A DNA stretch of 64,000 nucleotides from Aequorivita capsosiphonis DSM 23843 (GTDB taxonomy: Bacteria > Bacteroidota > Bacteroidia > Flavobacteriales > Flavobacteriaceae). Location: assembly GCF_000429125.1 (NCBI RefSeq), contig NZ_KE386850.1, positions 83,940-147,939 on the forward strand, in the 5' to 3' direction. Shown piece by piece: positions 3,091 to 59,226 of the stretch (its first letter is position 1; every line of letters begins with the position of its first letter). The notes below the pieces were generated by a model. The model saw only the letters and a program-made list of their open reading frames with translations. It was not told the DNA's origin and ran no database searches. Position numbers and translations under genes: made by a program.

Positions 3091-3122
3091 CTACTGAATA
3101 CTGATCACTGACTACTGTATAC
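3091..3122. repeat. Heptamer-periodic spacer (nnACTGA type)
   Basis: Four consecutive 7-mers CTACTGA, ATACTGA, TCACTGA and CTACTGT lie between the hydrolase and the TPM protein. It is one of many heptamer-periodic spacers in the window. Confidence 0.7.
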
Positions 3123-3128
3123 TTTTTT

Positions 3129-3929
3129 CTACCAGCCTCCAGAAGCACCACCTCCACCAAAGCCGCCGCCACCGAAACCACCGCCGAAGCCGCCACCGCC
3201 TCCGCCGAAACTTCCGCCGCCGCCAAAGCTGCCGCCACCTCCGCCAAAGCCACCACGGCCAAGGCTACTGAGCACAATCATATCTAGCAGACTCCCACCT
3301 CCTCCACCTTTTCCGCCTTTACCACCTTTTTTTATTAGGGCGATAATAATCATGATAAAGATGAAAATGATAAAAAACGGTATACGTGTCTCTTCCTTTT
3401 TTCCAAAATCACGGTCTTCTTTGAATTCACCTTTTAAGGCAGCGAAAATAGCATCGCTTCCCTTGTCAAGGCCAGCGTAGTAATTGTCTTGTTTGAATTC
3501 GGGAATCATAATTCGATTTATGATTCGCTCAGACATTAAATCGGTAATTCGATATTCAATTCCGTAACCAGTGTTTATGTCTACTTTTCTATCGTCTTTG
3601 GCAAGGGTTATTAGAATTCCATTGTCTTCCCCTTTTTGGCCAATTCCCCATTTCTGACCCCATTCTGCACCCAGCATCGAGATGTCTTCCCCATTTGTAG
3701 AACCAATAATGATACAAACAATTTGAGTGGAAGTAGAATCTGCATAACGAATCAATTTACCTTCCAACGCAGTTTTTTGCGTAGGTGTAAGCAAGTTTAA
3801 ATAATCATAAACTGAAGTTTCCTTTGATGGTTTTGGCGGAATTTCATACTGTGCCGAAACACTTTGGGAAATAAGTGTTACTGCAATTAATAAAAATAGA
3901 ATTTTATGTTTCAGAAAGAAATGTTTCAT
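3129..3929 (-). CDS. YgcG-like secreted TPM-domain protein with glycine-rich tail
   Basis: 266 residues. An N-terminal signal peptide (hydrophobic LFLLIAVTLI, then SVSAQ) is followed by a TPM domain at about residues 35-165 (VYDYLNLLTP, QKWGIGQKGEDNGILI, GYGIEYRITD) and one membrane helix at about 187-202 (FFIIFIFIMIII). A tail of 60 or more residues is almost only Gly, Phe and Ser. This order, signal-TPM-TM-Gly-rich tail, is that of the YgcG family. TPM proteins have been linked to acid phosphatase activity and to thylakoid repair in plants; the bacterial role is unclear. It forms a minus-strand block with another TPM gene and lemA, a common pairing in Bacteroidota that suggests a shared envelope function. 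Confidence 0.87.
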   Translation of the reverse strand: MKHFFLKHKILFLLIAVTLISQSVSAQYEIPPKPSKETSVYDYLNLLTPTQKTALEGKLIRYADSTSTQIVCIIIGSTNGEDISMLGAEWGQKWGIGQKGEDNGILITLAKDDRKVDINTGYGIEYRITDLMSERIINRIMIPEFKQDNYYAGLDKGSDAIFAALKGEFKEDRDFGKKEETRIPFFIIFIFIMIIIALIKKGGKGGKGGGGGSLLDMIVLSSLGRGGFGGGGGSFGGGGSFGGGGGGFGGGFGGGGFGGGGASGGW

Positions 3930-3953
3930 TGAAATTATTTACTGGATACTGCT

Positions 3954-3988
3954 ACTGAACACTGAACACTGAACACTGAGCACTGAAT
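3954..3988. repeat. Heptamer tandem array ACTGAAC
   Basis: Five head-to-tail 7-bp units: three exact ACTGAAC copies, then ACTGAGC, then ACTGAAT. The array sits in the short spacer between the two TPM genes and touches the stop codon of the upstream one. Confidence 0.85.
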
Positions 3989-4449
3989 CATCCTACCGAA
4001 ATATCATCTGGCAGTTCATTTTTATCGTCTTTTTGATAAGGGAAATGCTTTTTTAACTTTTCCCCAGCCTTCAAAATTCCGTCCACCAAACCTTGTTTCA
4101 TATCTCCATTTTTAAAATGCTTGATAATAGTATCTTTGGTGCTTTCCCAGAAATTTTGACCTACAACATCATTGATGCCTTTGTCGCCCATTATTACGAG
4201 CGTTCGGTCTTCAACAGCCACATAGATTAGCACGCCGTTACTCTCTTTTGTGTTGTTCATATGAAGTACATCAAAAACTTCAGCGGCGCGATCAAAAGCA
4301 TCTATTTGCTTCTTTGGCTCTTCCGTAGAAATCGAATTAGCTTCTAGATGTACGCGTATTTCTCCTGAAGTGTTTTTTTCAGAAATACGAATAGCTTCAA
4401 CAATAGCAGTCTCTTCTTCCGAAGTAAGAAAATCTTCAACTTTAGACAT
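3988..4449 (-). CDS. TPM-domain protein (short, no signal peptide)
   Basis: 153 residues, nearly all TPM domain: LTSEEETAIVEAIRISEKNTSGEIRVHLE at the N-terminus, then a NGVLIYVAVEDRTLVIMGDKGIND core and a helical end (GILKAGEKLKKHFP). No signal peptide or membrane helix is visible, so it may be cytosolic or membrane-associated through partners. It lies between the YgcG-like gene and lemA on the same strand, and the three probably share an operon. The biochemical role is not established. Confidence 0.82.
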   Translation of the reverse strand: MSKVEDFLTSEEETAIVEAIRISEKNTSGEIRVHLEANSISTEEPKKQIDAFDRAAEVFDVLHMNNTKESNGVLIYVAVEDRTLVIMGDKGINDVVGQNFWESTKDTIIKHFKNGDMKQGLVDGILKAGEKLKKHFPYQKDDKNELPDDISVG

Positions 4450-4500
4450 GTTTATACTTTTTTAAAATATTCTTGAGCTGAACATACTGCCAACTGCAAC

Positions 4501-4518
4501 TCCCGATAGCTATCGGGA
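4501..4518. repeat. 18-bp perfect palindrome
   Basis: TCCCGATAGCTATCGGGA is its own reverse complement. It lies 5 bp beyond the lemA stop (lemA is on the minus strand), between lemA and the TPM gene. It could be a protein-binding site or an mRNA hairpin; there is no T-run to make a standard terminator. Confidence 0.8.
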
Positions 4519-4522
4519 CTGA

Positions 4523-5134
4523 TTACTTATTCTCGTCTTTTCCGAAGTCAAAATCTACTTTCGGAGCGTTTTCACTACCTGCATCTGCTTTGAAATAAGC
4601 TTTTTCGTGGAAGCCTAACATTCCTGCAAACAGTTTGGTGGGGAACTGATTTAATTTCGTGTTCAATTCTTTTGCTGCGCCATTAAATCTGTTACGCTCC
4701 ACGTTTATACGGTTTTCGGTACGCTCCAGTTCGTTGATTAATTCCTTAAAATTTTCGTTTGCTTTTAAATCTGGATACCTTTCAAAAACGGCTAACAAGC
4801 GTGAGAGAGCAGAAGTAACGCCAGCCTGGGCTTGTTGAAATTGAGCTAATTGTTCTGGGGTAATATTAGAAGGATCAATATTAATAGAAGTAGCTTTACT
4901 TCTAGCTTCCGTTACAGCGACCAAAGTTGATTGTTCAAATTCGGCATAACCTTTTGCGGTACTTACGATATTTGGGATAAGATCTGCACGACGTTGATAC
5001 GAGCTTTCTACATTTGCCCATTGCGCTGTGGCATTTTGATCAAGTACTACAAGTTTGTTGTTCAGGCTGGCCATATAGGCGCCGATTAGTAAAATAATAC
5101 CGAGAATAATAATTATGGGTAACCATTTTTTCAT
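4523..5134 (-). CDS. lemA: LemA family protein
   Basis: 203 residues, a normal LemA length. One N-terminal membrane anchor at about residues 4-24 (WLPIIIILGIILLIGAYM) precedes a long helical domain with LemA signatures: NQNATAQWANVESSYQRR-type N-terminal helix, RADLIPNIVSTAKGYA, and SRLLAVFERYPDLKANENF. LemA proteins are membrane-anchored four-helix proteins of uncertain role, often encoded next to TPM proteins as here. It follows the MerR gene by 13 bp, so the two may be cotranscribed. Confidence 0.93.
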   Translation of the reverse strand: MKKWLPIIIILGIILLIGAYMASLNNKLVVLDQNATAQWANVESSYQRRADLIPNIVSTAKGYAEFEQSTLVAVTEARSKATSINIDPSNITPEQLAQFQQAQAGVTSALSRLLAVFERYPDLKANENFKELINELERTENRINVERNRFNGAAKELNTKLNQFPTKLFAGMLGFHEKAYFKADAGSENAPKVDFDFGKDENK

Positions 5135-5147
5135 GATGAGGTTGATT

Positions 5148-5477
5148 TTAGAGTTGTTCTTTTATTTTTAAAAGTTCTGCTTTTACAGATTCCAATTTAC
5201 GGATAATCTCAAATTGGTCCAGTGTTTTTTGTTTGTTTTCCTTTAAATGAATTTTTGCGCCTTCCAGTGTAAAACCGCGCTCTTTTACAAGGTGATAGAT
5301 AAGTTCCAGGTTTTTTATGTCCTGAGGTGTGAACTTCCGGTTGCCCTTGGCGTTTTTTTTAGGCTTTATTGCGTCAAATTCCTTTTCCCAAAAACGTATC
5401 AGCGAAGTATTCACACCGAAAGCTTCGGCTACTTCACCAATACCATAATATAATTTTTCGGGTAAGTCTATGTGCAT
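5148..5477 (-). CDS. MerR-family transcriptional regulator
   Basis: 109 residues. The N-terminal winged helix-turn-helix reads YYGIGEVAEAFGVNTSLIRFWEKEFD, then KKNAKGNRKFTPQDI and LELIYHLVKERGFTLEGAKIHL, the usual MerR recognition and wing pattern. A short coiled-coil end follows (LDQFEIIRKLESVKAELLKIKEQL), with no ligand-binding domain or metal-binding cysteines. It lies just upstream of lemA and downstream of an M23 peptidase gene on the same strand. Its targets are unknown; a role in envelope gene control is only suggested by context. Confidence 0.88.
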   Translation of the reverse strand: MHIDLPEKLYYGIGEVAEAFGVNTSLIRFWEKEFDAIKPKKNAKGNRKFTPQDIKNLELIYHLVKERGFTLEGAKIHLKENKQKTLDQFEIIRKLESVKAELLKIKEQL

Positions 5478-5543
5478 TTTTAATAATTATAAATTCAGAA
5501 TCATTAGCTGTCCTCAATATTCTCTACTACGCTAGATTCTGAA

Positions 5544-6521
5544 TTAATCCATAGATTGGTTTTCTTGTTGTGATATTTTCAACATTTCGGCAAATTCTTC
5601 TGCCGACAAACTTCCATAATAAAAGTTTATTGGGTTAATACGCTCACCATCCTTAAAAACTTCATAGTGGCAATGCGGCCCCTCACTTCTTCCAGTGCTG
5701 CCTACAAAGCCAATAACATCGCCACGTTGCACTTTTTGTCCGCGTCGAACATTGTATTTATACATATGCCCGTAAAGACTTTCATAACCGTAACCGTGAT
5801 CTATCACCACGTGGTTTCCGTATCCTGTTGCAGTATTGTCTGCACGTGTAACCACGCCATCCCCAGTGGCATAAATTGGAGTTCCTCGCGGGGCGGTAAA
5901 ATCCATGCCGTAATGAAACTTTTTAGCCTTGGTGAAAGGGTCGGTTCGATAACCGTAACCTGATGCAACACGCGTCAAATCTTCATTATTTACTGGTTGT
6001 ATTGCTGGAATCGCGACCAGAAGTTTTTCTTTTTCTTCCGCAAGTTTAGCAATTTCATCTAAAGATTTCGATTGAACCACAATCTGTTTTGTCAAAATAT
6101 CGAGGTTGCGAGAAGCACTTATAATAAGTTTTGAATTTTCGAAGCCTTCTAAATCCTTATATCGATTGATACCTCCAAAACCTGCTTTTCGCTGTTCATC
6201 TGGAATTGGGTTTGTTTCAAAATAGACACGGTACAAGTTATTATCTCGATCTTCCACTTCAGAAAGAACTGCCTGAGCTTGCTCCATTTTTCTGTTTAAA
6301 AGATCAAACTGCAACTGCATATTATTTAGCTCCCGCTGTAAAGATAACTCTTTGGGCGTTTGTACTGAGGGAAGGTTTATATAAACCAATAGCAACAAAA
6401 AGCCACTCAGGAACATGCCCAAAAGGCTTAAGGCGAAGATCTTTAATTTTCTTCCCTTTTTCTTTTCAATTTTTTTATACGAAAGTGTTTCACTATCGTA
6501 GTAATATTTAAGCTTAGACAT
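5544..6521 (-). CDS. M23-family membrane-anchored metallopeptidase
   Basis: 325 residues. A basic cytoplasmic N-terminus is followed by one membrane helix (about 28-48), a coiled-coil stretch (about 60-110, LQRELNNMQLQFDLLNRKMEQAQ), and a C-terminal LytM/M23 domain at about 185-300. Zinc ligands are visible in FHYGMDF (HxxxD) and GPHCHYEV (HxH). Such proteins cleave peptide cross-links in peptidoglycan or, if inactive, regulate other hydrolases; the ligands are intact here. It is the first gene of the minus-strand block and is divergent from alaS, with a 258-bp spacer between them. Confidence 0.9.
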   Translation of the reverse strand: MSKLKYYYDSETLSYKKIEKKKGRKLKIFALSLLGMFLSGFLLLLVYINLPSVQTPKELSLQRELNNMQLQFDLLNRKMEQAQAVLSEVEDRDNNLYRVYFETNPIPDEQRKAGFGGINRYKDLEGFENSKLIISASRNLDILTKQIVVQSKSLDEIAKLAEEKEKLLVAIPAIQPVNNEDLTRVASGYGYRTDPFTKAKKFHYGMDFTAPRGTPIYATGDGVVTRADNTATGYGNHVVIDHGYGYESLYGHMYKYNVRRGQKVQRGDVIGFVGSTGRSEGPHCHYEVFKDGERINPINFYYGSLSAEEFAEMLKISQQENQSMD

Positions 6522-6779
6522 GCGTTAAAAAATTGCTATTTTTGCGCCTTGCTAGTTTGCGCAAGGTAAAGGTAACGTTTTACAAATATAGAAATTGTTT
6601 ACTACTGTGCCCAAACCTTTATTTTAGCATAAATTTATAATAATTGAAAAATCCTTTTATGAACCTGACAGTTACAGGGGAATGTTTACAAAGGATGTTT
6701 TAGGCCAGTACTGCCGTTCTCCGGACTTTTTGCTGAACGCTGTAAATGCAAGATCATAAAAAAATAATACTATAAACAC
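6522..6779. other. Divergent spacer between the M23 peptidase gene and alaS
   Basis: Gene-free 258 bp. A TATTTTTG box (6537-6544) resembles a Bacteroidota -7 element pointing toward alaS, and a small inverted repeat CCTTGC/GCAAGG lies at 6547-6566. I see no convincing -33 element or RNA gene. Confidence 0.4.
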
Positions 6780-9392
6780 ATGAAGTCAAAGGAAATACGT
6801 TCCCAATTTTTAGAGTTTTTTAAGTCGAAACAGCATCTTATCGTTCCGTCGGCGCCCATGGTTGTAAAAAATGATCCCACATTAATGTTCATAAATAGCG
6901 GAATGGCGCCATTTAAAGAATATTTCTTAGGAAATGGAAAGCCAAAAAGCAAGCGTATTACCGATTCGCAGAAATGTCTTCGCGTTAGTGGAAAGCACAA
7001 TGATCTTGAAGAAGTGGGGATGGACACCTACCACCACACCATGTTTGAAATGCTCGGAAACTGGAGTTTTGGCGATTATTTTAAAAAGGATGCAATCGAG
7101 TGGGCGTGGGAACTCTTGACTGAAGTTTATAAAATAGATAAAGACATTCTCTACGTTACCATTTTTGAAGGTGATGAAAGTGAAGGTCTAGAGCGCGATA
7201 CGGAAGCTTATGATCTTTGGAAAAAATTTATTCCCGAAGACAGAATCTTAAACGGTAATAAAAGTGATAATTTCTGGGAAATGGGCGATCAAGGCCCATG
7301 CGGACCTTGTAGTGAGATTCACGTAGATATTCGTTCTGCCGAAGAAAAAGCTAAGATTCCAGGAAAAGATTTAATAAATAATGACCATCCGCAAGTTGTG
7401 GAAGTTTGGAATTTGGTTTTTATGCAGTTCAACCGAAAGGCCAACGGTAGTCTTGAAAAATTAGCTGCGCAGCATGTTGATACGGGAATGGGCTTTGAGC
7501 GCTTGGCTACGGTTTTACAAGATAAGCAGAGCAATTATGACACAGATGTTTTTACGCCGCTAATTCGAGAAATTGAAGCGATATCCAATTCAAAATACGG
7601 AAAAGACGAAAAGAAGGACATTGCAATCCGTGTTATTGCGGACCACGTTCGTGCGGTTGCTTTTTCAATTGCCGACGGTCAATTGCCGAGCAACACTGGC
7701 GCTGGTTATGTAATACGAAGAATTTTAAGAAGGGCAATTCGTTATGGATTTACATTTTTAGATAAAAAGGAGCCATTCATTTATAAATTGATTGAAACCC
7801 TTAGCGCGCAAATGGGCGAGGCTTTCCCAGAGTTGATTACTGAAAAAAATCTGATTACAAACGTAATTCGCGAAGAGGAACAATCTTTTTTACGTACACT
7901 GGATCAAGGTTTGGTGTTACTGGGAAATATTATTGAAGCTGCCGATTCAAAAGAGATTTCTGGTAAAAAAGCCTTTGAACTTTATGATACTTTCGGTTTC
8001 CCCATAGATTTAACTGCTTTAATTCTTCGGGAACGCGGATATTCCTTGAATGAGAAAGAATTTGATAAAGAACTTCAGAAACAAAAAGAACGTTCCCGAG
8101 CCGCGACTAAAGTGGAAACGGGAGATTGGATTGTTTTGGAAGAAGACGATATAGAGGAATTTGTGGGCTATGATACTTTAGAGACGCATGTGCGGATTAC
8201 GCGCTACCGAAAAGTAGAAAGTCAAAAGGATGGCGAAATGTTCCAGCTTGTTTTTAACTTGACTCCCTTTTATCCCGAAGGTGGAGGTCAAGTAGGCGAT
8301 AAGGGTTATTTGAAAGCTGCAGATGGAGGTGTGACTTATATTGTTGACACCAAAAAAGAAAATAATTTAATAATCCATTTTACAAAGACACTACCGCGAA
8401 ATCTCGAAAATACTTTTCTAGCTGTAGTTGATGAAAAACAGCGAAATAGAACTGCTTCAAACCACACCGCAACACATTTATTGCACCAAGGTTTGCGAAA
8501 TATTCTTGGCGAGCACGTTGCGCAAAAAGGAAGCATGGTCCACAGTCGTAATTTGCGTTTTGATTTTTCACATTTTGCGAGAGTTACGGATGATCAACTA
8601 AAAGAAGTAGAGGATTTCGTAAACGCACGAATTCGCGAAGGAATTTCTTTAGAAGAAAGGAGAAATATTCCGTTTCAGCAAGCTATAGATGAAGGGGCCG
8701 TTGCACTTTTCGGAGAAAAATATGGCGATGCCGTTCGAACCATTAAATATGGAAAATCAATGGAACTATGCGGTGGAACGCACGTGCCCAATACAAATGA
8801 TATTTGGCATTTCATTATTACTTCCGAAGGAGCCGTTGCATCCGGGATTAGAAGAATTGAGGCAATAACTGGAGATGCTGCAAAACAGTATTTTGTTGAT
8901 AGAAGCGAATCTTTTGCATCCCTTCAAAAAGCGCTTAACAATGCGAAAGATCCCGTGAAAGCTGTAGAAAGTTTACAAGAGGAGAACAGCAGTCTGCAAA
9001 AACAAATTCAGCAGTTGTTAAAAGACAAAGCAAAGAATTTAAAAGGCGATCTAAAAGCTGAAATCGAGCAAATAAACGGTGTGAATTTCTTAGCTAAAAA
9101 AATAGATTTAGATGCTGGAGGAATGAAAGATTTAGCTTTTGAAATGGGAGGTGAAACTGAAAATCTATTCTTGGTTTTTGGAGCCGAGCACGATGGAAAA
9201 GCTTTATTAGCTTGCTATATTTCAAAAGAATTGGCGGCTGAAAAAGATTTTAATGCCGGAAAAATTATTCGTGAACTGGGCAAATATATCCAAGGCGGCG
9301 GCGGCGGACAAGCTTTCTTCGCAACGGCTGGAGGTAAAAACCCCGCAGGAATTGATGAGGCTTTAAATATAGCTAAGGACTTTTTGAATTAA
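6780..9392 (+). CDS. alaS: Alanyl-tRNA synthetase
   Basis: 870 residues, full length for bacterial AlaRS. It charges tRNA-Ala. The class II catalytic core starts at the N-terminus ([31 protein letters not shown], the [13 protein letters not shown] and [17 protein letters not shown] motifs). The editing domain follows, with zinc ligands in HTATH (from His562) and CGGTH (Cys664), then a coiled coil and a C-Ala domain with a [14 protein letters not shown] loop. The ATG at 6780 directly precedes the conserved KSKEIRSQF start. It appears monocistronic, ending before a palindromic repeat. Confidence 0.98.
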
Positions 9393-9453
9393 CTCTGTGC
9401 CCTCTGTGTCTCTGTGGTAAATATTGCACCACAAAGGCACTGAGAACACGGAG
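9393..9453. repeat. Palindromic repeat with 26-nt arms (family B), copy 1
   Basis: Two imperfectly complementary arms, 9393-9418 (ending in CTCTGTGGT) and 9428-9453 (starting ACCACAAAGGC), are separated by 9 nt. The arms align with those at 22244-22306 and 24463-24524. The transcript would form a long hairpin between alaS and the GSCFA gene. Confidence 0.8.
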
Positions 9454-9469
9454 ATTTGTAAGAAAAACC

Positions 9470-10477: not shown

Positions 10478-10484
10478 AATCTCA

Positions 10485-10508: not shown

Positions 10509-10513
10509 AAAAT

Positions 10514-10559: not shown

Positions 10560-10608
10560 TTTTCAATAACAATCGAAACCCAAAAAGGGTGACTAAAAAC
10601 CAAATATT

Positions 10609-15976: not shown

Positions 15977-16037
15977 CCAAAAAACAAATCCCAAATTCCA
16001 AAAGGTTATTTTTTGGAATTTGGGATTTGTTTTTTGG
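15977..16037. terminator. Bidirectional terminator hairpin, 27-bp perfect stem
   Basis: Arms 15977-16003 and 16011-16037 are perfectly complementary, with a 7-nt loop and T/A-rich ends on both strands. It lies between the convergent M28 and metK genes. The arm also has a roughly 7-bp period (CAAATCC, CAAATTC, CAAAA). Confidence 0.88.
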
Positions 16038-16065
16038 TATTTATTTGATGATTGGTAATTGTAAT

Positions 16066-17355: not shown

Positions 17356-17445
17356 CCTAAGACGAAATGACTTAAGACGTACGACTAAAAAAAATTCAAA
17401 AAGTATTTAGTCTTAAGTCCTACGTCAAGCAGTCGTAAGTCATTT
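17356..17445. repeat. Heptamer-periodic hairpin (GACTTAA type)
   Basis: GACTTAAGAC (17369-17378) pairs exactly with GTCTTAAGTC (17410-17419), and the flanks carry further GACCTAAGACG and GTCGTAAGTC variants. The unit is GAC plus nTAA, period 7. Similar hairpins lie at 21463 and 41011. Confidence 0.8.
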
Positions 17446-19281: not shown

Positions 19282-19328
19282 GTCTCACGTCTCATCTCTA
19301 AAAAAATGTCTCACATCTCAAGTCTAAC
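19282..19328. repeat. Heptamer-periodic spacer (GTCTCAC type) overlapping the metX start
   Basis: GTCTCAC, GTCTCAT, then after a short gap GTCTCAC, ATCTCAA, GTCTAAC. The last units lie within the first codons of the gene at 19306. Confidence 0.65.
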
Positions 19329-21462: not shown

Positions 21463-21565
21463 AGACTTAAGACCGCTGCGCTATAGGACGTAAGACATAA
21501 GACAAGAAAATTTAAAAATATTAATTAGTCCTACGTCTTATGTCCTACCGTCTTAGGTCATTTTT
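21463..21565. repeat. Heptamer-periodic hairpin (GACATAA type)
   Basis: GACATAAGAC (21494-21503) pairs exactly with GTCTTATGTC (21535-21544); further GACTTAAGACC and GTCTTAGGTC units flank it. The unit GAC-nTAA has a 7-bp period. The region lies between hom and the OsmC gene. Confidence 0.85.
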
Positions 21566-22067: not shown

Positions 22068-22097
22068 GAAAAGACCTAAGACTTAAGACCGCTGGCT

Positions 22098-22146
22098 CCT
22101 CCGCTAGCCTACTACGCCGAAGTGGCTACGAAGGCCGTAAAGCTTC
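22098..22146 (+). repeat. 49-bp dispersed repeat, copy 1
   Basis: The 49 bases are an exact match to the reverse complement of 50347-50395. They include CTAGCCTACTACGCCGAAG and GGCTACGAAGGCCGTAAAGC. Confidence 0.95.
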
Positions 22147-22243
22147 TGAGGCACGCGGACGCTTTAAGACGTAAGACGCTGACTCGGGTCCGTCTGAGAT
22201 TGCGAACCTTATCTACCCTTACCTTTATGAAAGCGCCCTTTTT

Positions 22244-22306
22244 CTTTGCGAACTCTGCGCCTCAGCGGTGAGCTTTTTACCGCCAAGGCGCAAAGAACGC
22301 AGAGTT
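22244..22306. repeat. Palindromic repeat with 26-nt arms (family B), copy 2
   Basis: Arms begin CTTTGCGAACTCTGCG and ACCGCCAAGGCGCAAAG and pair imperfectly around a short T-rich loop. It aligns with 9393-9453 and 24463-24524. Confidence 0.85.
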
Positions 22307-33482: not shown

Positions 33483-33510
33483 CTTGAAACTTTGAACATT
33501 GAACTTTAAA
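33483..33510. repeat. Heptamer-periodic spacer (TTGAAAC type)
   Basis: Units TTGAAAC, TTTGAAC, ATTGAAC, TTTAAAT lie just before the rsgA start codon. Confidence 0.65.
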
Positions 33511-42400: not shown

Positions 42401-42421
42401 TCTCACGTCTCACGTCTCACC
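42401..42421. repeat. Heptamer tandem units TCTCACG
   Basis: TCTCACG, TCTCACG, TCTCACC in tandem, then CTTCAAGTCTC. It resembles the spacer before metX (19282-19328). Confidence 0.7.
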
Positions 42422-45386: not shown

Positions 45387-46193
45387 TTAGTTTTTTACGA
45401 TTTTAAAACTTTTAACAGCACCTTCTATAGAAACAGTAGCGATGTAAACGCCAGACTGAAGTCCAGAAATATTAAGAGATTCGTTATTGCTATTTAGTTT
45501 TTGGGAAACAACTTGTTGTCCCAACATATTGTAAAGAGCAATTTTTTCCATTGAAGTATTTGAAGAAAGAATCAATTGGTTGTTTGAAACAAAATGTTTG
45601 AAGCCTTTGAATTCATTAGTTCCAACAGCCAAAACTCCTGATACCATAACATCATCTATAGAAAGGTAGTCCATATCAGTTACATCATGATGTCTGAAAG
45701 CTATATAAATGGTCTCACCACTTAGGCTTGAAAGATCTAATTCACGTTCAAATTGAGTTCCCATGTCACTCGGATCATCGTAAACTTCAGTAAAAGTAAC
45801 GGTAGCATCTTCTAAGTCAGCAATATCACTGCTTGTGCCAACGTAAACACTGTAATTTTCATTATCCCATTCCGCGGCTGCAGCTTGAACCTTCCAAGAT
45901 AATTGAACATTGCCACTAGCAGTTGTTAAATCAATTGCAGGAGAAACAATCCAGTTATCTGGAGTTAATGGGGCGGTTTGCCAAGATCTTGAAATTAAAG
46001 AAATTGGAGTAACTGGATTTCCGCTAGCATCTGTAACAGCGAAAACATCAGCCCAGTTATTACCGTCACCATCCTCGTCGTAAAGAGTCCAATCTGAAAC
46101 ATCTTCTTCATTAAAATCATCTGAAAAGAAGACTGTTTGTGCACTCATAGCAAAGCCAGCAAATAATGCGGCCAAAAATGTAATTTTTTTCAT
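45387..46193 (-). CDS. Secreted T9SS cargo protein, choice-of-anchor J-type domain
   Basis: 268 residues. A signal peptide (about 1-18, MKKITFLAALFAGFAMSAQ) precedes a beta-sandwich domain (about 20-185) with FFSDDFNEEDVSDWTLYDEDGDGNNW and YLSIDDVMVSG, the pattern of choice-of-anchor J/cleaved-adhesin domains that bind sugars or other ligands. The C-terminal 70 residues (LYNMLGQQVVSQ...GVYIATVS...KSFKIVKN) are a type A T9SS sorting domain. Its ligand is unknown. It has its own promoter on the minus strand. Confidence 0.9.
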   Translation of the reverse strand: MKKITFLAALFAGFAMSAQTVFFSDDFNEEDVSDWTLYDEDGDGNNWADVFAVTDASGNPVTPISLISRSWQTAPLTPDNWIVSPAIDLTTASGNVQLSWKVQAAAAEWDNENYSVYVGTSSDIADLEDATVTFTEVYDDPSDMGTQFERELDLSSLSGETIYIAFRHHDVTDMDYLSIDDVMVSGVLAVGTNEFKGFKHFVSNNQLILSSNTSMEKIALYNMLGQQVVSQKLNSNNESLNISGLQSGVYIATVSIEGAVKSFKIVKN

Positions 46194-46512: not shown

Positions 46513-47490
46513 ATGAAGATAGTTTCACGCATCAAACTTCCCATTGAAAAAGAAATGGAGCTTTTTGAAAAAAAGTTCTCTGCTTCCATGTCTTCAAAAG
46601 TTTCTTTGCTGAACAGAATCACGCATTATGTTGTAAACCGAAAGGGTAAACAGATGCGCCCTATGTTCGTCTTTCTCATCGCAAAAATGACTGGAAATGG
46701 CGAAGTAAACGAACGCACCTACCGCGGAGCTTCGGTTATCGAACTGATACACACAGCGACATTAGTGCATGACGATGTAGTGGACGACAGTGATCGGCGT
46801 CGCGGCTTCTTCTCCATCAACGCACTTTGGAAAAACAAAATCGCCGTGCTTGTTGGCGATTATTTACTTTCAAAAGGATTGCTGCTTTCCATAGATAACG
46901 ACGATTTCGATCTTCTGAAAATAATCTCAGTTGCCGTTCGTGAAATGAGTGAAGGCGAATTGCTTCAAATTGAAAAAGCCAGAAGATTAGATATTACCGA
47001 AGAAGTCTATTTTGAAATAATCCGTCAAAAAACCGCGACGCTTATTGCCGCGTGTTGTGCCATGGGGGCTCGCTCAGTAATGGCTCCAGATGAAGAGGTT
47101 GAAAAAATGCGAAAGTTCGGTGAGCTTATCGGTACGGCTTTTCAGATAAAAGATGATCTTTTTGACTACGGAAACGAACACATTGGGAAACCTACCGGCA
47201 TCGATATCAAGGAACAAAAAATGACGCTACCTTTAATATATGCGCTCAATAATTGTACTTCCGAAGAAAAAAAGTGGATTATCAATTCCGTTAAAAACCA
47301 TAACAAGGACAAGAAACGCGTTAATGAAGTTATTGCTTTTGTAAAAAATAATGGCGGTCTGGATTATGCGGTTCAAAAGATGAAGGAATATCAACAGGAA
47401 GCGCTTGTTCTTCTGGAAAACCATCCCGCTTCGCCTTATAAGGATTCACTGGAGCTAATGGTGAATTACGTTATCGACAGGAAAAAATAG
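46513..47490 (+). CDS. Polyprenyl diphosphate synthase
   Basis: 325 residues of the trans-prenyltransferase family. The two Asp-rich motifs are LVHDDVVDDSDRRRG and FQIKDDLFDYG; RKGKQMRPMFVFL at the N-terminus binds IPP. It extends isoprenoid diphosphates, most likely making the side chain of menaquinone (octaprenyl/solanesyl-type). Chain length cannot be set from the sequence alone. The gene is monocistronic, with a promoter box almost touching the ATG. Confidence 0.94.
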   Translation: MKIVSRIKLPIEKEMELFEKKFSASMSSKVSLLNRITHYVVNRKGKQMRPMFVFLIAKMTGNGEVNERTYRGASVIELIHTATLVHDDVVDDSDRRRGFFSINALWKNKIAVLVGDYLLSKGLLLSIDNDDFDLLKIISVAVREMSEGELLQIEKARRLDITEEVYFEIIRQKTATLIAACCAMGARSVMAPDEEVEKMRKFGELIGTAFQIKDDLFDYGNEHIGKPTGIDIKEQKMTLPLIYALNNCTSEEKKWIINSVKNHNKDKKRVNEVIAFVKNNGGLDYAVQKMKEYQQEALVLLENHPASPYKDSLELMVNYVIDRKK

Positions 47491-47491
47491 T

Positions 47492-47527
47492 GTTCAGTAT
47501 TCAGTGGTCAGTATTCAGTGTTTTATC
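47492..47527. repeat. Heptamer-periodic spacer (TCAGTAT type)
   Basis: Units TCAGTAT, TCAGTGG, TCAGTAT, TCAGTGT follow the polyprenyl synthase stop. A second set (ACCTGAA, ACTTGAA) lies near 47650, and a CCGCCGAAGC repeat-like element near 47675. Confidence 0.65.
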
Positions 47528-49105: not shown

Positions 49106-49134
49106 GGATTTTTCAATGTTCAATAATCACTTTT

Positions 49135-49155
49135 CAATAAACAATAAACAATAAA
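49135..49155. repeat. Heptamer tandem units CAATAAA
   Basis: Three exact CAATAAA copies, preceded by less exact TTCAATG and TTCAATA units and followed by a short CAT microsatellite. Confidence 0.7.
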
Positions 49156-49188
49156 CATTCATCATCATCAATCAAAAATCGAACACTT

Positions 49189-50346: not shown

Positions 50347-50395
50347 GAAGCTTTACGGCCTTCGTAGCCACTTCGGCGTAGTAGGCTAGCGGAGG
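50347..50395 (-). repeat. 49-bp dispersed repeat, copy 2
   Basis: Exact reverse complement of 22098-22146. It lies between the outer-membrane protein gene and dnaG. Confidence 0.95.
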
Positions 50396-53093: not shown

Positions 53094-53295
53094 CTTAATG
53101 ATTTTAAAATATTAATTTAAAAATCGGAGCTACGATTTCCAATCACAAGAAGAAATTGCTCTTGAAATTTGATTTTAGGTAACCAATTTGTTTGGAAAAT
53201 GTAATATTAAGACTAGGTTTTGAATTAATGAAATTTTAAGTTGAAGAATACTTAATCTTTCGCTTAAGAGTTAAAAATTTCGATAAATGACAATT

Positions 53296-54084: not shown

Positions 54085-54163
54085 TTTTACCTATAGTGTT
54101 AAAGAATTGTGAATATAAATATGCTCGCAAAGACGCCAAGTCGCTAGGTTTTTTTAATTTTCT

Positions 54164-54233
54164 CTAAACTCTAAACTCTAAACTCTAAACTCTAAACTCT
54201 AAACTCTAAACTCTAAACTCTAAACTCTAAACT
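54164..54233. repeat. Ten exact tandem copies of CTAAACT
   Basis: Ten uninterrupted 7-bp copies, the longest array in the window, followed by diverged units to about 54300. Exactness suggests recent expansion or ongoing slippage. Confidence 0.95.
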
Positions 54234-54315
54234 CCAAACCCTCCTTACGGCAGCCAAGCTTCTAAACTTCCAAACTTTTAAACCCATAAACTTTTTAACT
54301 CAATGCGCAAAAAAG

Positions 54316-54323
54316 TACCTTTG
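54316..54323 (+). promoter_or_regulatory. gldB: -7 box for gldB-gldC
   Basis: TACCTTTG matches TAnnTTTG exactly. Transcription should begin near 54329. The -33 region overlaps the degenerate end of the heptamer array. Confidence 0.65.
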
Positions 54324-54395
54324 CAGCGCAAAAGTTGTTAAAGATAAAATTAATAAAAGGGAATGGCGTTAACCAACAATAACATTTTTTCTGCT

Positions 54396-55352
54396 ATGAG
54401 ATATATTGTGTTCGTTTTTCTTGGACTTCTACTTTTTTCCTGCAACAATTCTAACGATGTTGAAAAGGAAATTGATAAAATCCCTATGAATGTCGAAATA
54501 ATTCGATTCGACAAGGAATTTGCCATGACCAAACCGAAAGATCTACCGAAATTAAAATCGGAGTTCCCTGCTTTTTTTCCAAAGCAATATAACGACAGTA
54601 TTTGGATTGAAAAGTTGACTGATACGCTTCAGAATCAACTGGAAAATGAAGTGCTAAAAACCTTTCCTGAAGATAATTCTTTGATAGATATCCTTGTTCC
54701 ACTATTTCAGCACATAAAATATTATTTTCCAGAATTTGAGACTCCAGTAGTGGTTACAACTACCTCAGATGTTGATTACCGCAATAAAGTTATTCTTACC
54801 GATAGTCTATTGGTGTTAGGTTTGGACAATTATTTGGGGAGCGACCATAAGTTTTATCAAGGGATTGATAAATATATTAGCAAAGAGATGAAACCTTCTC
54901 AAATGGGTCCTGACGTTGCAAAAATCTATGCGAAACAATTCGTAAAACCACCAAACAGGAGTTCTTTTCTTGGGCAGATAATTTATTACGGAAAACAGCT
55001 TTACCTGGAAGACTTATGGCTTCCAGATGCTACCGATGCTGAAAAAATAGGCTATACCGAAGACGAATACGCTTGGGCAGAAGAGAACGAAGAATACATA
55101 TGGAGGTATTTTGTAGAAAAGGAATTGCTCTACAGTACCAATCCAAAACTGGGAGCCCGATTTATTAGTCCAGCGCCTTTTTCGAAATTTTATTTAGAAA
55201 TAGATAACGAATCTCCTGGAATGCTAGGTCGCTATTTGGGCTGGAAAATAGTTCGAGCTTATATGGAAAGAAATAAAACAGATGTTCAGCGATTAATGAT
55301 TCTGGATGCTGACGAAATATTTAAAAATTCAAAATACAAACCAAAGAAATAA
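54396..55352 (+). CDS. gldB: Gliding-motility lipoprotein GldB
   Basis: About 318 residues from the ATG at 54396 (MRYIVFVFLGLLLFSC is a lipoprotein signal); an in-frame ATG at 54363 would add 11 residues. GldB features: IDKIPMNVEIIRFDKEFA, FFPKQYNDSIWIEKLTDTLQ, the LGLDNYLGSDHKFYQGIDKYI segment and ENEEYIWRYFVEKELLYST. GldB is a membrane lipoprotein needed for gliding and associated with T9SS function. It overlaps gldC by 1 bp. Confidence 0.95.
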   Translation: MRYIVFVFLGLLLFSCNNSNDVEKEIDKIPMNVEIIRFDKEFAMTKPKDLPKLKSEFPAFFPKQYNDSIWIEKLTDTLQNQLENEVLKTFPEDNSLIDILVPLFQHIKYYFPEFETPVVVTTTSDVDYRNKVILTDSLLVLGLDNYLGSDHKFYQGIDKYISKEMKPSQMGPDVAKIYAKQFVKPPNRSSFLGQIIYYGKQLYLEDLWLPDATDAEKIGYTEDEYAWAEENEEYIWRYFVEKELLYSTNPKLGARFISPAPFSKFYLEIDNESPGMLGRYLGWKIVRAYMERNKTDVQRLMILDADEIFKNSKYKPKK

Positions 55353-55693
55353 TGGCAATAAAACATACTTCCGAAATAAAGTTAAACATCGGGCTCGATG
55401 AAAATAAAATTCCCGAAACCATACAATGGACCGCAGAAGATGGCGGGATCACTAATGAAGAAACTAAGGCGGTAATGCTTTCTGTTTGGGACAATAAAAA
55501 AAAGGAATCACTTAGAATTGATCTTTGGACCAAAGATATGCCCGTAGATGAGATGAAGATTTTCTTTCACCAAACTTTGAGCGCTATGGCCGATACTTTT
55601 GAGCGCGCCACAGACGACAAGAAAATGAGCGCTACCATGCGTGATTTCTGTGAATATTTTGCGGAGAAATTGGAGCTAAAAAGAGAAGACTAG
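55352..55693 (+). CDS. gldC: Gliding-motility protein GldC
   Basis: 113 residues, the usual GldC length. Family pattern: TSEIKLNIGLDENKIPETIQWTAEDGGI, ETKAVMLSVWDNKKKESLRIDLWTKDMPVDEMKIFFHQTL. In other flavobacteria GldC supports gliding but is not strictly essential. It starts at the last base of the gldB stop and ends before the convergent engB. Confidence 0.96.
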   Translation: MAIKHTSEIKLNIGLDENKIPETIQWTAEDGGITNEETKAVMLSVWDNKKKESLRIDLWTKDMPVDEMKIFFHQTLSAMADTFERATDDKKMSATMRDFCEYFAEKLELKRED

Positions 55694-55723
55694 TTTAAGA
55701 AGCTAACAAAGCAGCAGGTCTTT

Positions 55724-56329
55724 TTAAAGGCCTGTTAGATTTTTGCTTATTTCTTCAATATAATTTAAAACCTCGTCTCTTCCTTCAGAATTACTGGCAG
55801 AGGTAACGAAGTATTTGGGCATTGCTTCCCAAGTTTCAAGCATTTTATTGGAATAAACCTCGATGTTTCTTTCCAAAGCTTTCGGTTTTAACTTGTCAGC
55901 TTTTGTAAAAATAATATTAAAAGGAATTCCGTTTTCGCCCATCCATTGCATAAATTCAAGATCAATGGGTTGCGGTTCATGCCGACAATCGACTAAAACA
56001 AAAGCGAGTATCATTTGTTCCCTTAGTTCAAAATAACTGGTGATGAATTTTTGAAATGTTTTTTTACTACTTTTTGAAACACGAGCATATCCATAGCCTG
56101 GTAAATCCACTAGATACCAATTTTTGTTGATAAGAAAATGATTTATAAGCTGTGTTTTTCCGGGTCTTCCAGAAGTTTTTGCTAGATTTTTTCGCAACAT
56201 CAGCATATTAATTAGCGAAGATTTCCCCACGTTACTGCGGCCAATAAAAGCGTATTCTGGCATACGGTCTTTTGGGCATTTAGCGACATCGCTATTGCTC
56301 ATTACAAATTCCGCGGATTTAATGTGCAT
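55724..56329 (-). CDS. engB: Ribosome biogenesis GTPase EngB/YsxC
   Basis: 201 residues. GTPase motifs: G1 [14 protein letters not shown]2 region [11 protein letters not shown]3 [11 protein letters not shown]4 TKADK, G5 TSAS. EngB takes part in 50S subunit assembly and is essential in many bacteria. It is convergent with gldC and lies 105 bp downstream of the hydrolase gene on the same strand, separated by a CAACCTG heptamer spacer. Confidence 0.96.
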
Positions 56330-56407
56330 TGTTTAAGATTTAAGCCCGCCTGCTGGAGGAGAGTTGTGAGTTATGATTTGTGAATGATAAAAAAAATGCA
56401 TCATTAG

Positions 56408-56428
56408 CAACCTGCAACCTGTAATCAG
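56408..56428. repeat. Heptamer units CAACCTG
   Basis: Two exact CAACCTG copies and a diverged TAATCAG lie between engB and the hydrolase gene. Confidence 0.5.
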
Positions 56429-56434
56429 AACTCC

Positions 56435-57214
56435 TTAGAATCCTCGTTTCTCTAACCAAGCATTGAGTAGTTGGTTAAATTCATCTGGATGTTCCATCAT
56501 GGCGGCGTGGCCACATTTGTCAATCCAAAAAAGTTCTGAATCTGGCAAAAGTCGGTCAAATTCCACGGCAACATCTGGAGGTGTAACCTTGTCATTTCTG
56601 CCCCAGATTATACATGTTGGAGTATGCATTTTAGGTAGGTCTTTCGCCATGTTGTGACGTATGGCGCTTTTGGCTATGGCAAGGGTTCTAATTAGTTTAT
56701 TTCTGTCGTTTACGGTTGTGTAAACATCATCTACAATTTCCTTGGTAGCAACTGCTGGGTCGTGAAAAACGTCTTCAGCTTTTTTCTTAATATACTCGTA
56801 GTCACCACGCTTTGGGTAGCTTTCACCCATGGCACTTTCATAGAGACCTGAACTGCCCGTTATCACTAATGCCTTTACCTTTTCAGGATACATTTTTGTG
56901 CAAAGCAAACCAATATGGCCTCCAAGGGAATTTCCAAGTAATATTACTTCATCGTATCCTAAATGATCGATAAACTGCGCCACATATTTAGCAAAGTTCT
57001 TAACATTAGTGCGTAACAAGGTCATTTTATAGATGGGCAATTCTGGCAGTAGAATTTTGTAACCCTTTGGAGGGAAGAAATCTGCCACACCATCAAAATT
57101 GCTCAAACCGCCCATGAGTCCGTGAAGGATAACGATAGGGGTGCCTTCGCCTATTTCTAAATATGAAAATTTTCCTTCTTTTTTTAAGTTTTCTGACATG
57201 CTTGTTTTCTGCAA
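56435..57214 (-). CDS. Alpha/beta-fold hydrolase
   Basis: 259 residues. The oxyanion region is VILHGLMGGLSNFDG, the nucleophile elbow LLGNSLGGHIGLL, the acid IIWGRNDKVTPP and the catalytic His CGHAAMMEHPDEFN. It is a soluble esterase/lipase-like or C-C hydrolase-like protein; the substrate is unknown. The start at 57214 gives MQKTSMSENLKKEGK, and a later in-frame ATG six codons on (MSENLKK) is equally possible. It is divergent from the dcw cluster. Confidence 0.9.
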   Translation of the reverse strand: MQKTSMSENLKKEGKFSYLEIGEGTPIVILHGLMGGLSNFDGVADFFPPKGYKILLPELPIYKMTLLRTNVKNFAKYVAQFIDHLGYDEVILLGNSLGGHIGLLCTKMYPEKVKALVITGSSGLYESAMGESYPKRGDYEYIKKKAEDVFHDPAVATKEIVDDVYTTVNDRNKLIRTLAIAKSAIRHNMAKDLPKMHTPTCIIWGRNDKVTPPDVAVEFDRLLPDSELFWIDKCGHAAMMEHPDEFNQLLNAWLEKRGF

Positions 57215-57304
57215 TTTAGAATGACAAAAGTAAACAAAATTATTTCATACAGTCTATATAAAATAAGGCTTTGTTATTCAGTAATTTGAATTCTTGTAGT
57301 TTCT

Positions 57305-57371
57305 AAAGTGGTGAAACTTATTAACAAAGTGGTAGAATGTGGTAAATTGTGGTAAAAGTTATTTATATTTG
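57305..57371 (+). promoter_or_regulatory. mraZ: mraZ promoter with phased MraZ-type boxes
   Basis: AAAGTGG (57305), AAAGTGG (57326), AATGTGG (57336) and ATTGTGG (57346) are in direct orientation, spaced 21, 10 and 10 bp. A TATATTTG -7 box lies at 57364-57371, 32 bp before the ATG. MraZ binds repeated GTGG/TGGG-type boxes before its own gene in E. coli and Mycoplasma, so this is probably its operator. Confidence 0.75.
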
Positions 57372-57403
57372 AATCAACAAATTGCAAATCGGTAATTTTC
57401 ACA

Positions 57404-57877
57404 ATGCTCAATCTAATAGGCACATACGAATGTAAAGCAGACGTAAAGGGACGCGTCATGGTCCCTGCGCCGTTGAAAAAACAGTTGGCTCCGTTTATGG
57501 CCGATGGTTTTGTGGTAAAGCGTGCCGTCTTTCAGCCTTGCTTGGAAATATACCCTATGAAAGAATGGGATGCCTTGATGCGAAAAATGGGCGATCTCAA
57601 CAGGTTCACTCGAAAAAATAATGATTTCATCAGAAGGTTTACCGCTGGTGTAAAGATAGTTGAACTTGATGCAACGGGGCGTTTATTGATACCGAAAGAT
57701 CTGCTCTCGTTTGCTGGAATAAGTAAAGAACTAGTTGTTTCATCCGCAATAAATATTGTGGAAATATGGGACAAAGATAGATACGAACAGGCTATTGATG
57801 ATGCGGCAGATGACTTTGCTGATTTAGCTGAAGAAGTAATGGGGGATAAAAGCGATGGAGCTAATGGAATATCATAA
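57404..57877 (+). CDS. mraZ: Transcriptional regulator MraZ
   Basis: 157 residues, two AbrB-like half-domains: GTYECKADVKGRVMVPAPLKKQL at the N-terminus and VKIVELDATGRLLIPKDLLSFAGI in the second half. MraZ forms a ring and represses or modulates the dcw cluster from repeated boxes in front of its gene, which are visible here. It overlaps rsmH by 14-23 bp depending on the start. Confidence 0.96.
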   Translation: MLNLIGTYECKADVKGRVMVPAPLKKQLAPFMADGFVVKRAVFQPCLEIYPMKEWDALMRKMGDLNRFTRKNNDFIRRFTAGVKIVELDATGRLLIPKDLLSFAGISKELVVSSAINIVEIWDKDRYEQAIDDAADDFADLAEEVMGDKSDGANGIS

Positions 57878-58760
57878 TCCAGTTTTGCTAAAAGAAACTG
57901 TTTCGGGGCTAAATATAAAGTCAGATGGAGTTTACGTAGACGTAACCTTCGGTGGTGGCGGACACTCGCGTGAGATTTTGGCGCAATTGGGTCCAGAAGG
58001 AAAGCTTATAGCATTTGATCAAGACAAGGATGCTTTGGTAAATGCTATTGACGATCCTAGATTTTTATTGATCAATCAGAATTTTCGTCTTATGAAGAAG
58101 TTCTTGCGCTTTCATGGATATAAAACGGTTGATGGTATTTTAGGTGACTTTGGGGTTTCGTCACACCAATTTGACGTTGCTGAACGAGGGTTTTCAACAC
58201 GCTTTGAAGCTGAATTAGATATGCGTATGAACCGCGATAGCCGATTTTCTGCATATACGGTTGTCAACAAATATGAAGAGGTGGAGTTGAGAAATGTGCT
58301 TTCAAATTATGGTGAATTGAGAACTGCATCCGGAATGGCTCGTGCCATTGTTGAAGCGCGAGAAGAAGAAAAAATAAAAACAAGCGAACAGCTTAAAAAG
58401 GTATTACGAAGATTTTTGCCGGCTCATAGAGAGAATAAGATCTTGGCCCAAATTTATCAAGCTATTCGCATTGAAGTGAACCAAGAGTTGGAGGCTTTAA
58501 AAGAATTCTTATTACAAACCGAAGCGGTTTTAGAGACTGGGGGCAGAATAAGTTTGATAAGCTATCATTCTTTGGAAGATAGATTGGTAAAGCGTTACAT
58601 CCGAAATGGAATGTTTGAGGGGGAGCCAGAAAAAGATGTTTTTGGAAATTTTGAAGTTCCTTTTAAAGCGGTTGGAAAATTCATTATTCCTTCCAAGAAA
58701 GAAATAAAGGAGAACAATCGTGCTAGAAGTGCTAAACTTCGCATTGCTGAGAAAATATAG
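57864..58760 (+). CDS. rsmH: 16S rRNA (cytosine-N4) methyltransferase RsmH
   Basis: About 298 residues. It methylates C1402 of 16S rRNA. Family motifs: MEYHNPVLLKETVSGL at the start (ATG 57864; an ATG at 57855 would add three residues), VDVTFGGGGHSREIL (SAM site), GILGDFGVSSHQFD, RGFSTRFEAELDMRM, QIYQAIRIEVNQELE and ISLISYHSLEDRLVKRYIR. It overlaps mraZ, showing translational coupling. Confidence 0.97.
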   Translation: MEYHNPVLLKETVSGLNIKSDGVYVDVTFGGGGHSREILAQLGPEGKLIAFDQDKDALVNAIDDPRFLLINQNFRLMKKFLRFHGYKTVDGILGDFGVSSHQFDVAERGFSTRFEAELDMRMNRDSRFSAYTVVNKYEEVELRNVLSNYGELRTASGMARAIVEAREEEKIKTSEQLKKVLRRFLPAHRENKILAQIYQAIRIEVNQELEALKEFLLQTEAVLETGGRISLISYHSLEDRLVKRYIRNGMFEGEPEKDVFGNFEVPFKAVGKFIIPSKKEIKENNRARSAKLRIAEKI

Positions 58761-58767
58761 ATTTTCT

Positions 58768-58828
58768 GAAAAAGAGAGATGAGAATAAAGAGAAGAAAGT
58801 AAAGAATAAAGAATAAAGAGAAAAAGGA
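58768..58828. repeat. Heptamer-periodic spacer (AAGAATA type)
   Basis: AAGAATA, AAGAATA, AAGAGAA units with less exact neighbours, between rsmH and ftsL; a related stretch lies at 59161-59205 between ftsL and ftsI. Both are purine-rich on the coding strand. Confidence 0.7.
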
Positions 58829-58835
58829 TAGCGGA

Positions 58836-59156
58836 TTGAAAGATGGTTTTTACAATATAATAAAAGGTAAGTTTTTAGTTAGTGATGACGCGCTCAAAAA
58901 TTGGCGTTTCATCATTTTTCTTTCACTATTAGCTTTGGTGATGATTGCCAGTTCCCACAATGCTGATAAAAAGGTTCATAGAATTTCGAAGCTAAATTCG
59001 GAAGTAAAAGAATTGAAAAGTGAATATGTAGATGTGAGAATGATATTGATGCAATCGCGAATGGAGAGCAAAATAATAGCGGCCATGGAAAACAGAGGTT
59101 TACAACCTTCCATAAACCCGCCTAAGCGAATTCGAATTATTGAGAAGGAAGAGTAG
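58836..59156 (+). CDS. ftsL: FtsL-like cell-division protein (TTG start)
   Basis: 106 residues. A short cytoplasmic part is followed by one membrane helix (about 25-41, FIIFLSLLALVMIASS) and a coiled coil (SKLNSEVKELKSEYVDVRMILMQSRMESKI) ending in a basic tail. Size, topology and position between rsmH and ftsI fit FtsL, which recruits FtsI/FtsW to the septum. No suitable ATG is present in frame before the helix, so TTG 58836 is the likely start. Sequence similarity in this family is always weak; the assignment rests on topology and position. Confidence 0.87.
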   Translation: MKDGFYNIIKGKFLVSDDALKNWRFIIFLSLLALVMIASSHNADKKVHRISKLNSEVKELKSEYVDVRMILMQSRMESKIIAAMENRGLQPSINPPKRIRIIEKEE

Positions 59157-59226
59157 CTTGATAGAAAGGGAATAAAGAGTAAATAATAAAGAGAAAAGAA
59201 GATACTGACCACTGCGTACTGAAATA

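Follow-up and report, generated by a model that had tools for sequence, protein, structure and literature searches.

Heptanucleotide repeat arrays in Aequorivita intergenic spacers and their direction relative to open reading frames

Introduction

In a 64,000-nucleotide stretch of the draft genome of Aequorivita capsosiphonis DSM 23843 (positions 83,940-147,939 of NZ_KE386850.1, in a 4.04-Mb assembly; hereafter the window), short tandem arrays in the spacers share a period of 7 bp while the repeated heptamer changes from spacer to spacer. What kind of process would hold the period and change the unit? The original prediction, made from the letters of the window, proposed a common mechanism, either slippage with a preferred 7-bp step or a DNA-binding protein with a 7-bp register. 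The analysis reported here supports a 7-bp-step process common to arrays with changing units. The arrays are heptanucleotide microsatellites, a known kind, and the dominance of heptamers was already known; the new part is their direction. Within 40 bp of an open reading frame (ORF), the C-richer strand of an array usually enters the ORF 5' to 3' and the G-richer strand leaves it, at start and stop ends alike.

Heptamers are reported to be the most abundant class of long simple sequence repeats (LSSRs) in most prokaryote genomes, and slippage set by the polymerase footprint was proposed to explain this (Mrazek et al., 2007, as cited in PMC4679880 and PMC4692102). Beyond this general statement, which it takes from others, PMC4679880 gives heptamer dominance for Aequorivita and for two other Flavobacteriia. 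The LSSRs of Mrazek and colleagues show the same heptanucleotide excess as the arrays described here, and the passages citing them mention no direction relative to ORFs. Two properties of heptanucleotide LSSRs were found in the present material, namely tandem 7-mers beyond chance and whole-unit copy changes between relatives, the latter at one aligned orthologous site and in one higher-order repeat.

Period 7 in intergenic DNA

Window arrays were checked with Tandem Repeats Finder and by direct reading. The 39 window spacers with a length of 30 bp or more total 6603 bp and hold seven runs of at least 8 matched bases at lag 7. Shuffled spacers have 0.48 such runs on average, none of 200 shuffles had more than 2, and no other lag from 4 to 12 has more than 1 run. 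An 864-kb sample, consisting of the window and 40 stretches of 20 kb (about one-fifth of the genome), holds 42 intergenic exact tandem runs of at least 10 matched bases at period 7. The other periods give 3 (period 4), 2 (5), 9 (6), 3 (8), 2 (9), 1 (10), 2 (11), 5 (12) and 0 (13) runs, and the 14 runs at period 14 are a harmonic of 7. Coding DNA of the same sample has 7 runs at period 7, vs 6 at period 6, 4 at period 9 and 5 at period 12. The excess grows with run length, from 434 runs vs 166-253 at periods 4-6 and 8-13 when at least 5 matched bases are required, to 41 vs 0-8 at 10 or more. Thus the predicted constancy of the 7-bp period stands, both beside periods 5, 6 and 8, the comparison on which it had been staked (42 vs 2, 9 and 3), and beside coding and shuffled sequence.

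A period-7 peak was also seen in named Aequorivita loci, Flavobacterium and the Gillisia group, and little of one in Aquimarina, Polaribacter/Lutibacter and other families of the order. Three of the four other Aequorivita genomes sampled had only 1 or 2 such runs per 100 kb, and in one of these (G017) period 8 exceeds period 7. All of these are small samples.

Direction of the arrays

Direction was counted in the window genome, in other Aequorivita genomes and in other genera; 27 further genomes are labelled as the same genus (28 in all). Aequorivita todarodis is the closest named relative among the matches listed for the window nadE (81% identity), a list from which very near records may be missing. 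Low-complexity arrays, duplicates, arrays without both neighbours (1/106 ACTGANN arrays) and arrays lying at least 60% inside a called ORF (8/106 ACTGANN, 6/24 CTTGAAN and 8/33 TTGAANN) were dropped before counting; removal of duplicates changed the window-genome ACTGANN count from 25:1 to 24:1 (toward:away, here and below).

Among 97 unique intergenic ACTGANN arrays, ACTGA reads toward the nearest ORF edge in 79 and away from it in 18 (p 2.7e-10, with arrays treated as independent). The ratio is 24:1 in the window genome, 33:14 in other Aequorivita and 22:3 in other genera, hence 55:17 without the window genome, and five further Aequorivita arrays gave 5:0. The polarity is concentrated within 40 bp of an ORF (64:9) and is absent beyond 100 bp (5:6). 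It appears at start ends (39:5) and at stop ends (40:13), and therefore does not follow transcription. Single ACTGA words have no orientation (292:282); doublets are already oriented (32:8), as are longer arrays (46:14 and 59:11).

Other units are directional as well. TTGAANN arrays point toward ORFs (21:4) and GACNTAN arrays away from them (2:17). Doublets within 40 bp behave in the same manner (TTGAA 20:4, GACNTA 1:11), vs single words at 464:530 and 84:89, respectively. The C/G rule stated above also covers CTTGAAN (14:4), AAGACNT (3:11), TTAGANN (1:5), GTTANGA (1:5) and CTTTNNT (8:2), and TGACTNN arrays of another genus, most of whose units have at least as many G as C, point away from ORFs in 16 cases and toward them in 4, as the rule expects. 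Over all units, arrays no more than 40 bp from an ORF have their C-richer strand entering it at 50:8 in the window genome, 67:20 in the genus and 33:13 in other Flavobacteriaceae; in G133 the skew is 9:4 (p 0.055). At more than 60 bp little or no skew is left (7:3, 22:13 and 4:4). Many sets had been fetched because they held a given unit, so counts from random samples are a fairer test of the rule. These gave 26:4 at start ends and 32:15 at stop ends, or 17:2 and 23:7 once the ACTGA and TTGAA families were removed.

Unit vocabulary

The units are not random. Among 69 arrays, 26 pairs have identical units, vs 3.9-6.3 in two nulls. Three copies of ACTGANC occur in 19/28 Aequorivita genomes, with 71 (overlapping) matches in the window genome; the reversed control of the same composition occurs in 0/28. 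CTTGAAN and AAGACNT in three copies are found in 13/28 and 19/28 of these genomes, and both controls match in some genomes. Control counts at larger scales were tallied by hand from the result table: at family scale three copies of ACTGANN are present in 40/149 genomes (reversed control 19/149), and at phylum scale four copies in 30/247 (18/247). In three Aequorivita genomes, most of the control matches listed are ACTGACT arrays, which fit both patterns. Units identical within the genus number 19 pairs vs about 5, orthologous sites included, and those identical with other genera 20 pairs vs 7.5-19.2 depending on the null. The original prediction was right that units change, but some families recur, and the better-sampled ones are directional relative to ORFs.

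Several other regularities were tried and set aside. Units carrying a stop codon on some strand, as in a stop-codon cassette, are only slightly enriched (0.797 vs 0.699 +- 0.046 shuffled), weakly and in the genus only. Fixed anchor positions within units (109 variable phases vs 116.9 +- 3.2 in the window genome) proved partly a detection artefact. Inverted array pairs as general hairpin terminators were rejected, since inverted exact 9-mers lie near 7/69 arrays vs 7.2 expected. Inverted 12-mers lie near 3 arrays vs 1.4 expected, and same-word inverted pairs in both spacer halves number 2/436 vs 0.34 expected (window genome). Real cases exist, but they are not a general property.

Turnover of arrays between relatives

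Five Aequorivita relatives and an outgroup keep the order of most genes between 42 and 64 kb of the window, as far as their loci extend, so the spacers are comparable. The nadE-gldB spacer holds 11 CTCTAAA copies here and is 75-76 bp long without an array in four Aequorivita relatives. The spacer after rsmH is reduced to 1 bp in four Aequorivita relatives and the outgroup, and in A. todarodis it contains a different array. Across the aligned orthologues of spacer 49106-49188, CAATAAA is present in 3 (here), 6, 2, 2, 0 and 0 copies. Of the spacers orthologous to that at 56407, some carry (GGAGTTA)n or (GAAACTT)n arrays that are longer than the one here, and others have traces or no array. Ahead of the penicillin-binding-protein gene (59170..59220), ACTGANN-like heptads are found in 4/5 aligned Aequorivita relatives, and A. 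vitellina has one such word. In another Aequorivita (L241, 2420-3010), ACTGANC and ATGAGTT heptads build a higher-order repeat, with tandem copies of about 100 bp that contain, as read by eye, 4, 3, 4 and 6 ACTGA units.

The alignment of orthologous spacers, suggested at the outset as a check, thus revealed gain, loss and 7-bp steps in copy number, which fit a slippage-type process and not a bound protein. A shared process with a 7-bp step is supported by these shifts of whole units among relatives. The alternative of a DNA-binding protein with a 7-bp register fared poorly, as sister species lack the array, or have another one, in the corresponding spacer. Most heptad arrays are conserved neither in position nor in unit, unlike a period-10 box at 57215-57403.

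That box, built on GTGGTAAAAT, lies upstream of gene 57404-57877 and is kept in five Aequorivita relatives and the outgroup. We take it to resemble an MraZ-type box, and it is likely to be a protein-bound array.

Relation to known heptamer repeats

The short tandemly repeated repetitive (STRR) sequences of heterocystous cyanobacteria are heptamer arrays, intergenic as here and in a different phylum. The original prediction knew of no account of heptamer arrays for Flavobacteriaceae. Such an account exists: arrays have been reported in Gramella forsetii, in Aequorivita sublithincola and also in Elizabethkingia anophelis, and in the first two the spacers concerned carry other heptamers as well (PMC4679880). 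The same paper describes TAACTGA direct repeats in Beggiatoaceae, in Cyanobacteria and in five Bacteroidetes, one of them A. sublithincola (MacGregor, 2015; PMC4679880), with one further mention in PMC4853749. The TAACTGA repeats share with the present arrays the ACTGANN core and a mostly intergenic location, and many of them end next to ORF starts (PMC4679880). The present arrays, in contrast, consist mainly of ACTGAAC, ACTGACC and ACTGACT together with other families, and stop-end arrays are as common as start-end ones; in direction, the arrays face starts (39:5) but also stops (40:13). The TAACTGA unit itself (ACTGATA) is absent from the window-genome ACTGANN arrays listed, and is carried by G001, G180 and G282.

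Similarly, Xanthomonas GGGAATC and Nostoc GGGGAYT repeats are heptamers and mostly intergenic (Rehm et al., 2015; PMC4692102). In Xanthomonas the repeats are often inverted pairs; their mean distance is 28 nt to the next 5' ORF and 160 nt to the downstream one, and the genes may be on either strand (PMC4692102). This spacing seems to agree with the direction rule, if 5' refers to the G-rich strand, and the counts given here together with the published placement of TAACTGA and GGGAATC look like one rule, as far as the passages seen of those reports go. Unlike the G-quadruplex units of Xanthomonas and Nostoc, 0/69 arrays here have four GGG or CCC runs. Neither a fixed direction nor a non-random choice of units was found stated in searches of the open-access literature for heptamer repeats in this group.

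Origin of the polarity

The arrays are probably heptanucleotide microsatellites made by slippage on a 7-nt ruler, reiterated in one direction, filtered by ORFs and otherwise mostly neutral. Replication- or repair-linked slippage with such a ruler, perhaps the polymerase footprint, would duplicate a heptamer and then reiterate it one way along the DNA. The process may damage or re-write sequence on the 3' side of the G strand, and beside an ORF mainly outward-facing copies would survive. The arrays would otherwise decay, mostly neutrally; their concentration in spacers would follow from 7 not being a multiple of 3. As the polarity sets in with the second copy and disregards gene strand, we infer a mutational process that is directional and on which ORFs act as a filter. 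Selection on messages or on composition is a possible source of the polarity.

Several points weigh against this interpretation. ORFs were called throughout with a crude ORF caller, the C/G rule was worded after several families had been seen, and the ACTGANN polarity was first noticed in the window genome (25:1) before it was tested in others. Shared spacers (five arrays in L241, several in G133) mean that counts are not fully independent. An early set (G002/3/4/21) gave only 16:9 for ACTGANN, the small families AAATTCC (2:3) and AATAAAC (0:2) do not fit the C/G rule, and at stop ends the random samples from outside the window genome are even or nearly so (genus 6:6, other Flavobacteriaceae 7:5). 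Within the window the rule is not clear (8:6), with opposing C/G skew in the arrays at 22071..22090 (3:4), 58782..58819 and, for its nearer ORF, 49112..49165. Further, array variants are not concentrated at one end (8 vs 14 arrays, p 0.29) and the two flanks decay equally, so that neither observation directly favours directional growth. A first count of growth from array ends (4/17 vs 14/17) was biased by the search pattern and was discarded; corrected tests were weak (45:27, p 0.03) or null. Lastly, plain slippage does not predict the preference for ACTGANC over its reversed control.

Polarity may instead have arisen secondarily, on top of slippage that is neutral as to the unit, through selection on base composition (leaders poor in G and in start codons) or through the way ORFs are called. 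We consider this doubtful, though it deserves serious weight. In the window genome, array-free edges facing starts are already richer in C than in G (0.159 vs 0.112), and units are poor in ATG (8, where shuffled units have 17.2 and random heptamers from spacers 13.6). An array that is open in the sense direction can also be swallowed by an ORF call, as may have happened to the ACTGANN arrays dropped for lying in called ORFs. However, array-free edges facing stops have no background skew (C 0.154, G 0.160), yet arrays are skewed there (window genome 34:5, genus 37:13). The stop-end skew holds over all random samples, though not in those from other genomes. Single ACTGA and GACNTA words lack polarity, and longer minimum ORF lengths left the C/G skew much the same.

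A regulatory role is unlikely. ACUGANN before starts and UCAGUNN after stops would act in mRNA as binding sites of translation regulators, as MacGregor proposed for TAACTGA, or as trans-pairing partners. The fixed direction in which arrays abut starts and stops is consistent with this, as are the heptads that precede the same start codon in 4/5 relatives and the TAACTGA sets of BOGUAY, which face a start codon in 147/170 cases, the largest class ending 1 nt upstream (PMC4679880). On the other hand, sister species gain and lose arrays in their spacers, unrelated units are also directional and single words are unoriented. The mRNA sequence is moreover opposite at the two gene ends, so a single RNA-binding protein cannot account for both.

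It is also rather improbable, on present evidence, that the arrays are scars of directional, telomere-like reiteration at 3' ends in a broken or stalled spacer. The last heptamer would then be repeated outward from the surviving gene by an enzyme with a 7-nt ruler, either a polymerase or a reverse transcriptase, and the G-richer strand would extend 3'-ward at either side. Shared machinery would give the same direction in Flavobacteriaceae, Beggiatoaceae and Xanthomonas, and units would differ as each end or lineage supplied its own heptamer.

Carriage by a mobile or dispersed element is very unlikely. The same units do occur at many sites, and the left side of several ACTGANN arrays is T-rich and in some of them includes CGCAAAG-type sequence. 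However, no flank match at E 0.01 links any two of ten ACTGANN arrays, and no element ends were found. A T-rich leader was rejected as a general feature (0.367 T vs 0.34 in random spacers of the window genome); in exact arrays of units other than ACTGA, T-leaders outnumber A-leaders (11:3 and 15:9). Least credible of all is a sequence-specific DNA-binding protein with a 7-bp register that maintains the arrays, for which the narrow unit vocabulary speaks, but which is hard to reconcile with many unrelated units at one period and with arrays that, unlike the period-10 box, are not conserved in orthologous spacers.

Arrays in the window

About six of the sites originally listed are good arrays and the remainder are degenerate or have about two copies; by the ORF calls used here, they are intergenic or at gene ends, as had been stated. 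Tandem arrays of ACTGAAC (3954), TCTCACG (42401), TCAGTAT (47492), CAATAAA (49135) and CTAAACT (54164) were confirmed. The first, (ACTGAAC)4.9 at 3954..3987 (plus strand), has a minus-strand TPM-domain gene on each side and is 1 bp away from the stop codon of one of them, 3988-4449. A degenerate TACTGAN array at 3092..3123 (plus) lies 5 bp past the stop of the minus-strand gene 3129-3929, with its ACTGA strand facing that gene. (TCTCACG)2.9 at 42401..42420 (plus) is in mid-spacer after a T run. The TCAGTNT array at 47489..47522 (minus) follows the stop of the polyprenyl synthetase gene immediately; its AGTATTC/TCAGTAT part (47489-47519) is degenerate, with 4.4 copies, and some orthologous spacers carry related heptads. 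CAATAAA has a core of 3.3 copies (49135-49157) in a longer degenerate array at 49112..49165 (plus), 6 and 23 bp from two ORFs. (CTCTAAA)11.1, of which CTAAACT is an alias, occupies 54162..54239 (plus) between nadE and gldB, 77 bp from the nearer gene.

GACNTAN heptads are looser. At 17369..17426, between metK and an O-acetylhomoserine sulfhydrylase-like gene, degenerate GACNTAN heptads on the left and TTANGTC heptads on the right form an inverted pair; the GACTTAA heptads noted near 17369 are degenerate. After a homoserine dehydrogenase-like gene, GACNTAN heptads are followed by inverted TTANGTC heptads and a T run (21484..21559); GACATAA, reported at 21494 and 41029, has fewer than two exact copies inside such looser heptads. 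GACCTAA/GACTTAA heptads at 22071..22090 (plus) lie 3 bp past the end of an OsmC-like gene. GTCTCAC at 19282 amounts to two near-copies side by side. The TTGAAAC site near 33483 likewise holds heptads, though degenerate TTGAANN ones (33483..33510, plus), 5 bp before the start of an rsgA-like gene. CAACCTG is a real but marginal repeat of 2.1 copies (56407-56421), seen as two GCAACCT and one degenerate unit at 56407..56424 (plus); the minus-strand gene 56435-57214 has its stop 10 bp away. The AAGAATA array after rsmH is genuine, a degenerate (AGAATAA)5.4 at 58782..58819 (plus) with an exact core at 58800-58819, and begins about 14 bases later than the 58768 first given. Just upstream of the start of the penicillin-binding-protein gene, GAATAAA heptads precede TACTGACCACTGCGTACTGAA (59170..59220, plus); the GAATAAA part (59170-59200) is degenerate or marginal.

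Other features were noted in passing. A hairpin with AAATTCC/GGAATTT heptad arms lies in the spacer of convergent genes at 15985-16042, with a strand skew that opposes the direction rule. Period-8-like CGCAAAG/CTCTGTG sequence, in some cases in hairpins, occurs in spacers at 9393-9469, about 22240-22305 and about 54120-54150, and elsewhere in the genome some ACTGANN arrays directly follow such sequence and a T-rich tract. A GC-rich dispersed repeat has an identical 35-bp core, inverted, at 22112-22146 and 50347-50381, and five genome copies (up to 3 mismatches), one about 20 bp from a GACNTAN heptad array. Gene 45387-46193, between an rlmN-like gene and the polyprenyl synthetase gene, has homologues of 41-44% identity in four relatives; A. 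todarodis (L021) lacks it, and the spacer there holds an inverted pair of GACNTAN heptad arrays.

Implications

For the preference of long-unit bacterial microsatellites for 7 bases, one guess, the polymerase footprint, is offered in the parts of the literature consulted (PMC4679880, PMC4692102). A direction that is tied to ORF edges, arises at the second copy, is blind to gene strand and seems to agree with spacing published for another phylum places a strong constraint on the mechanism, and any complete genome can serve to check it. If the direction is a footprint of break repair, past breaks in bacterial spacers could be read from these arrays.

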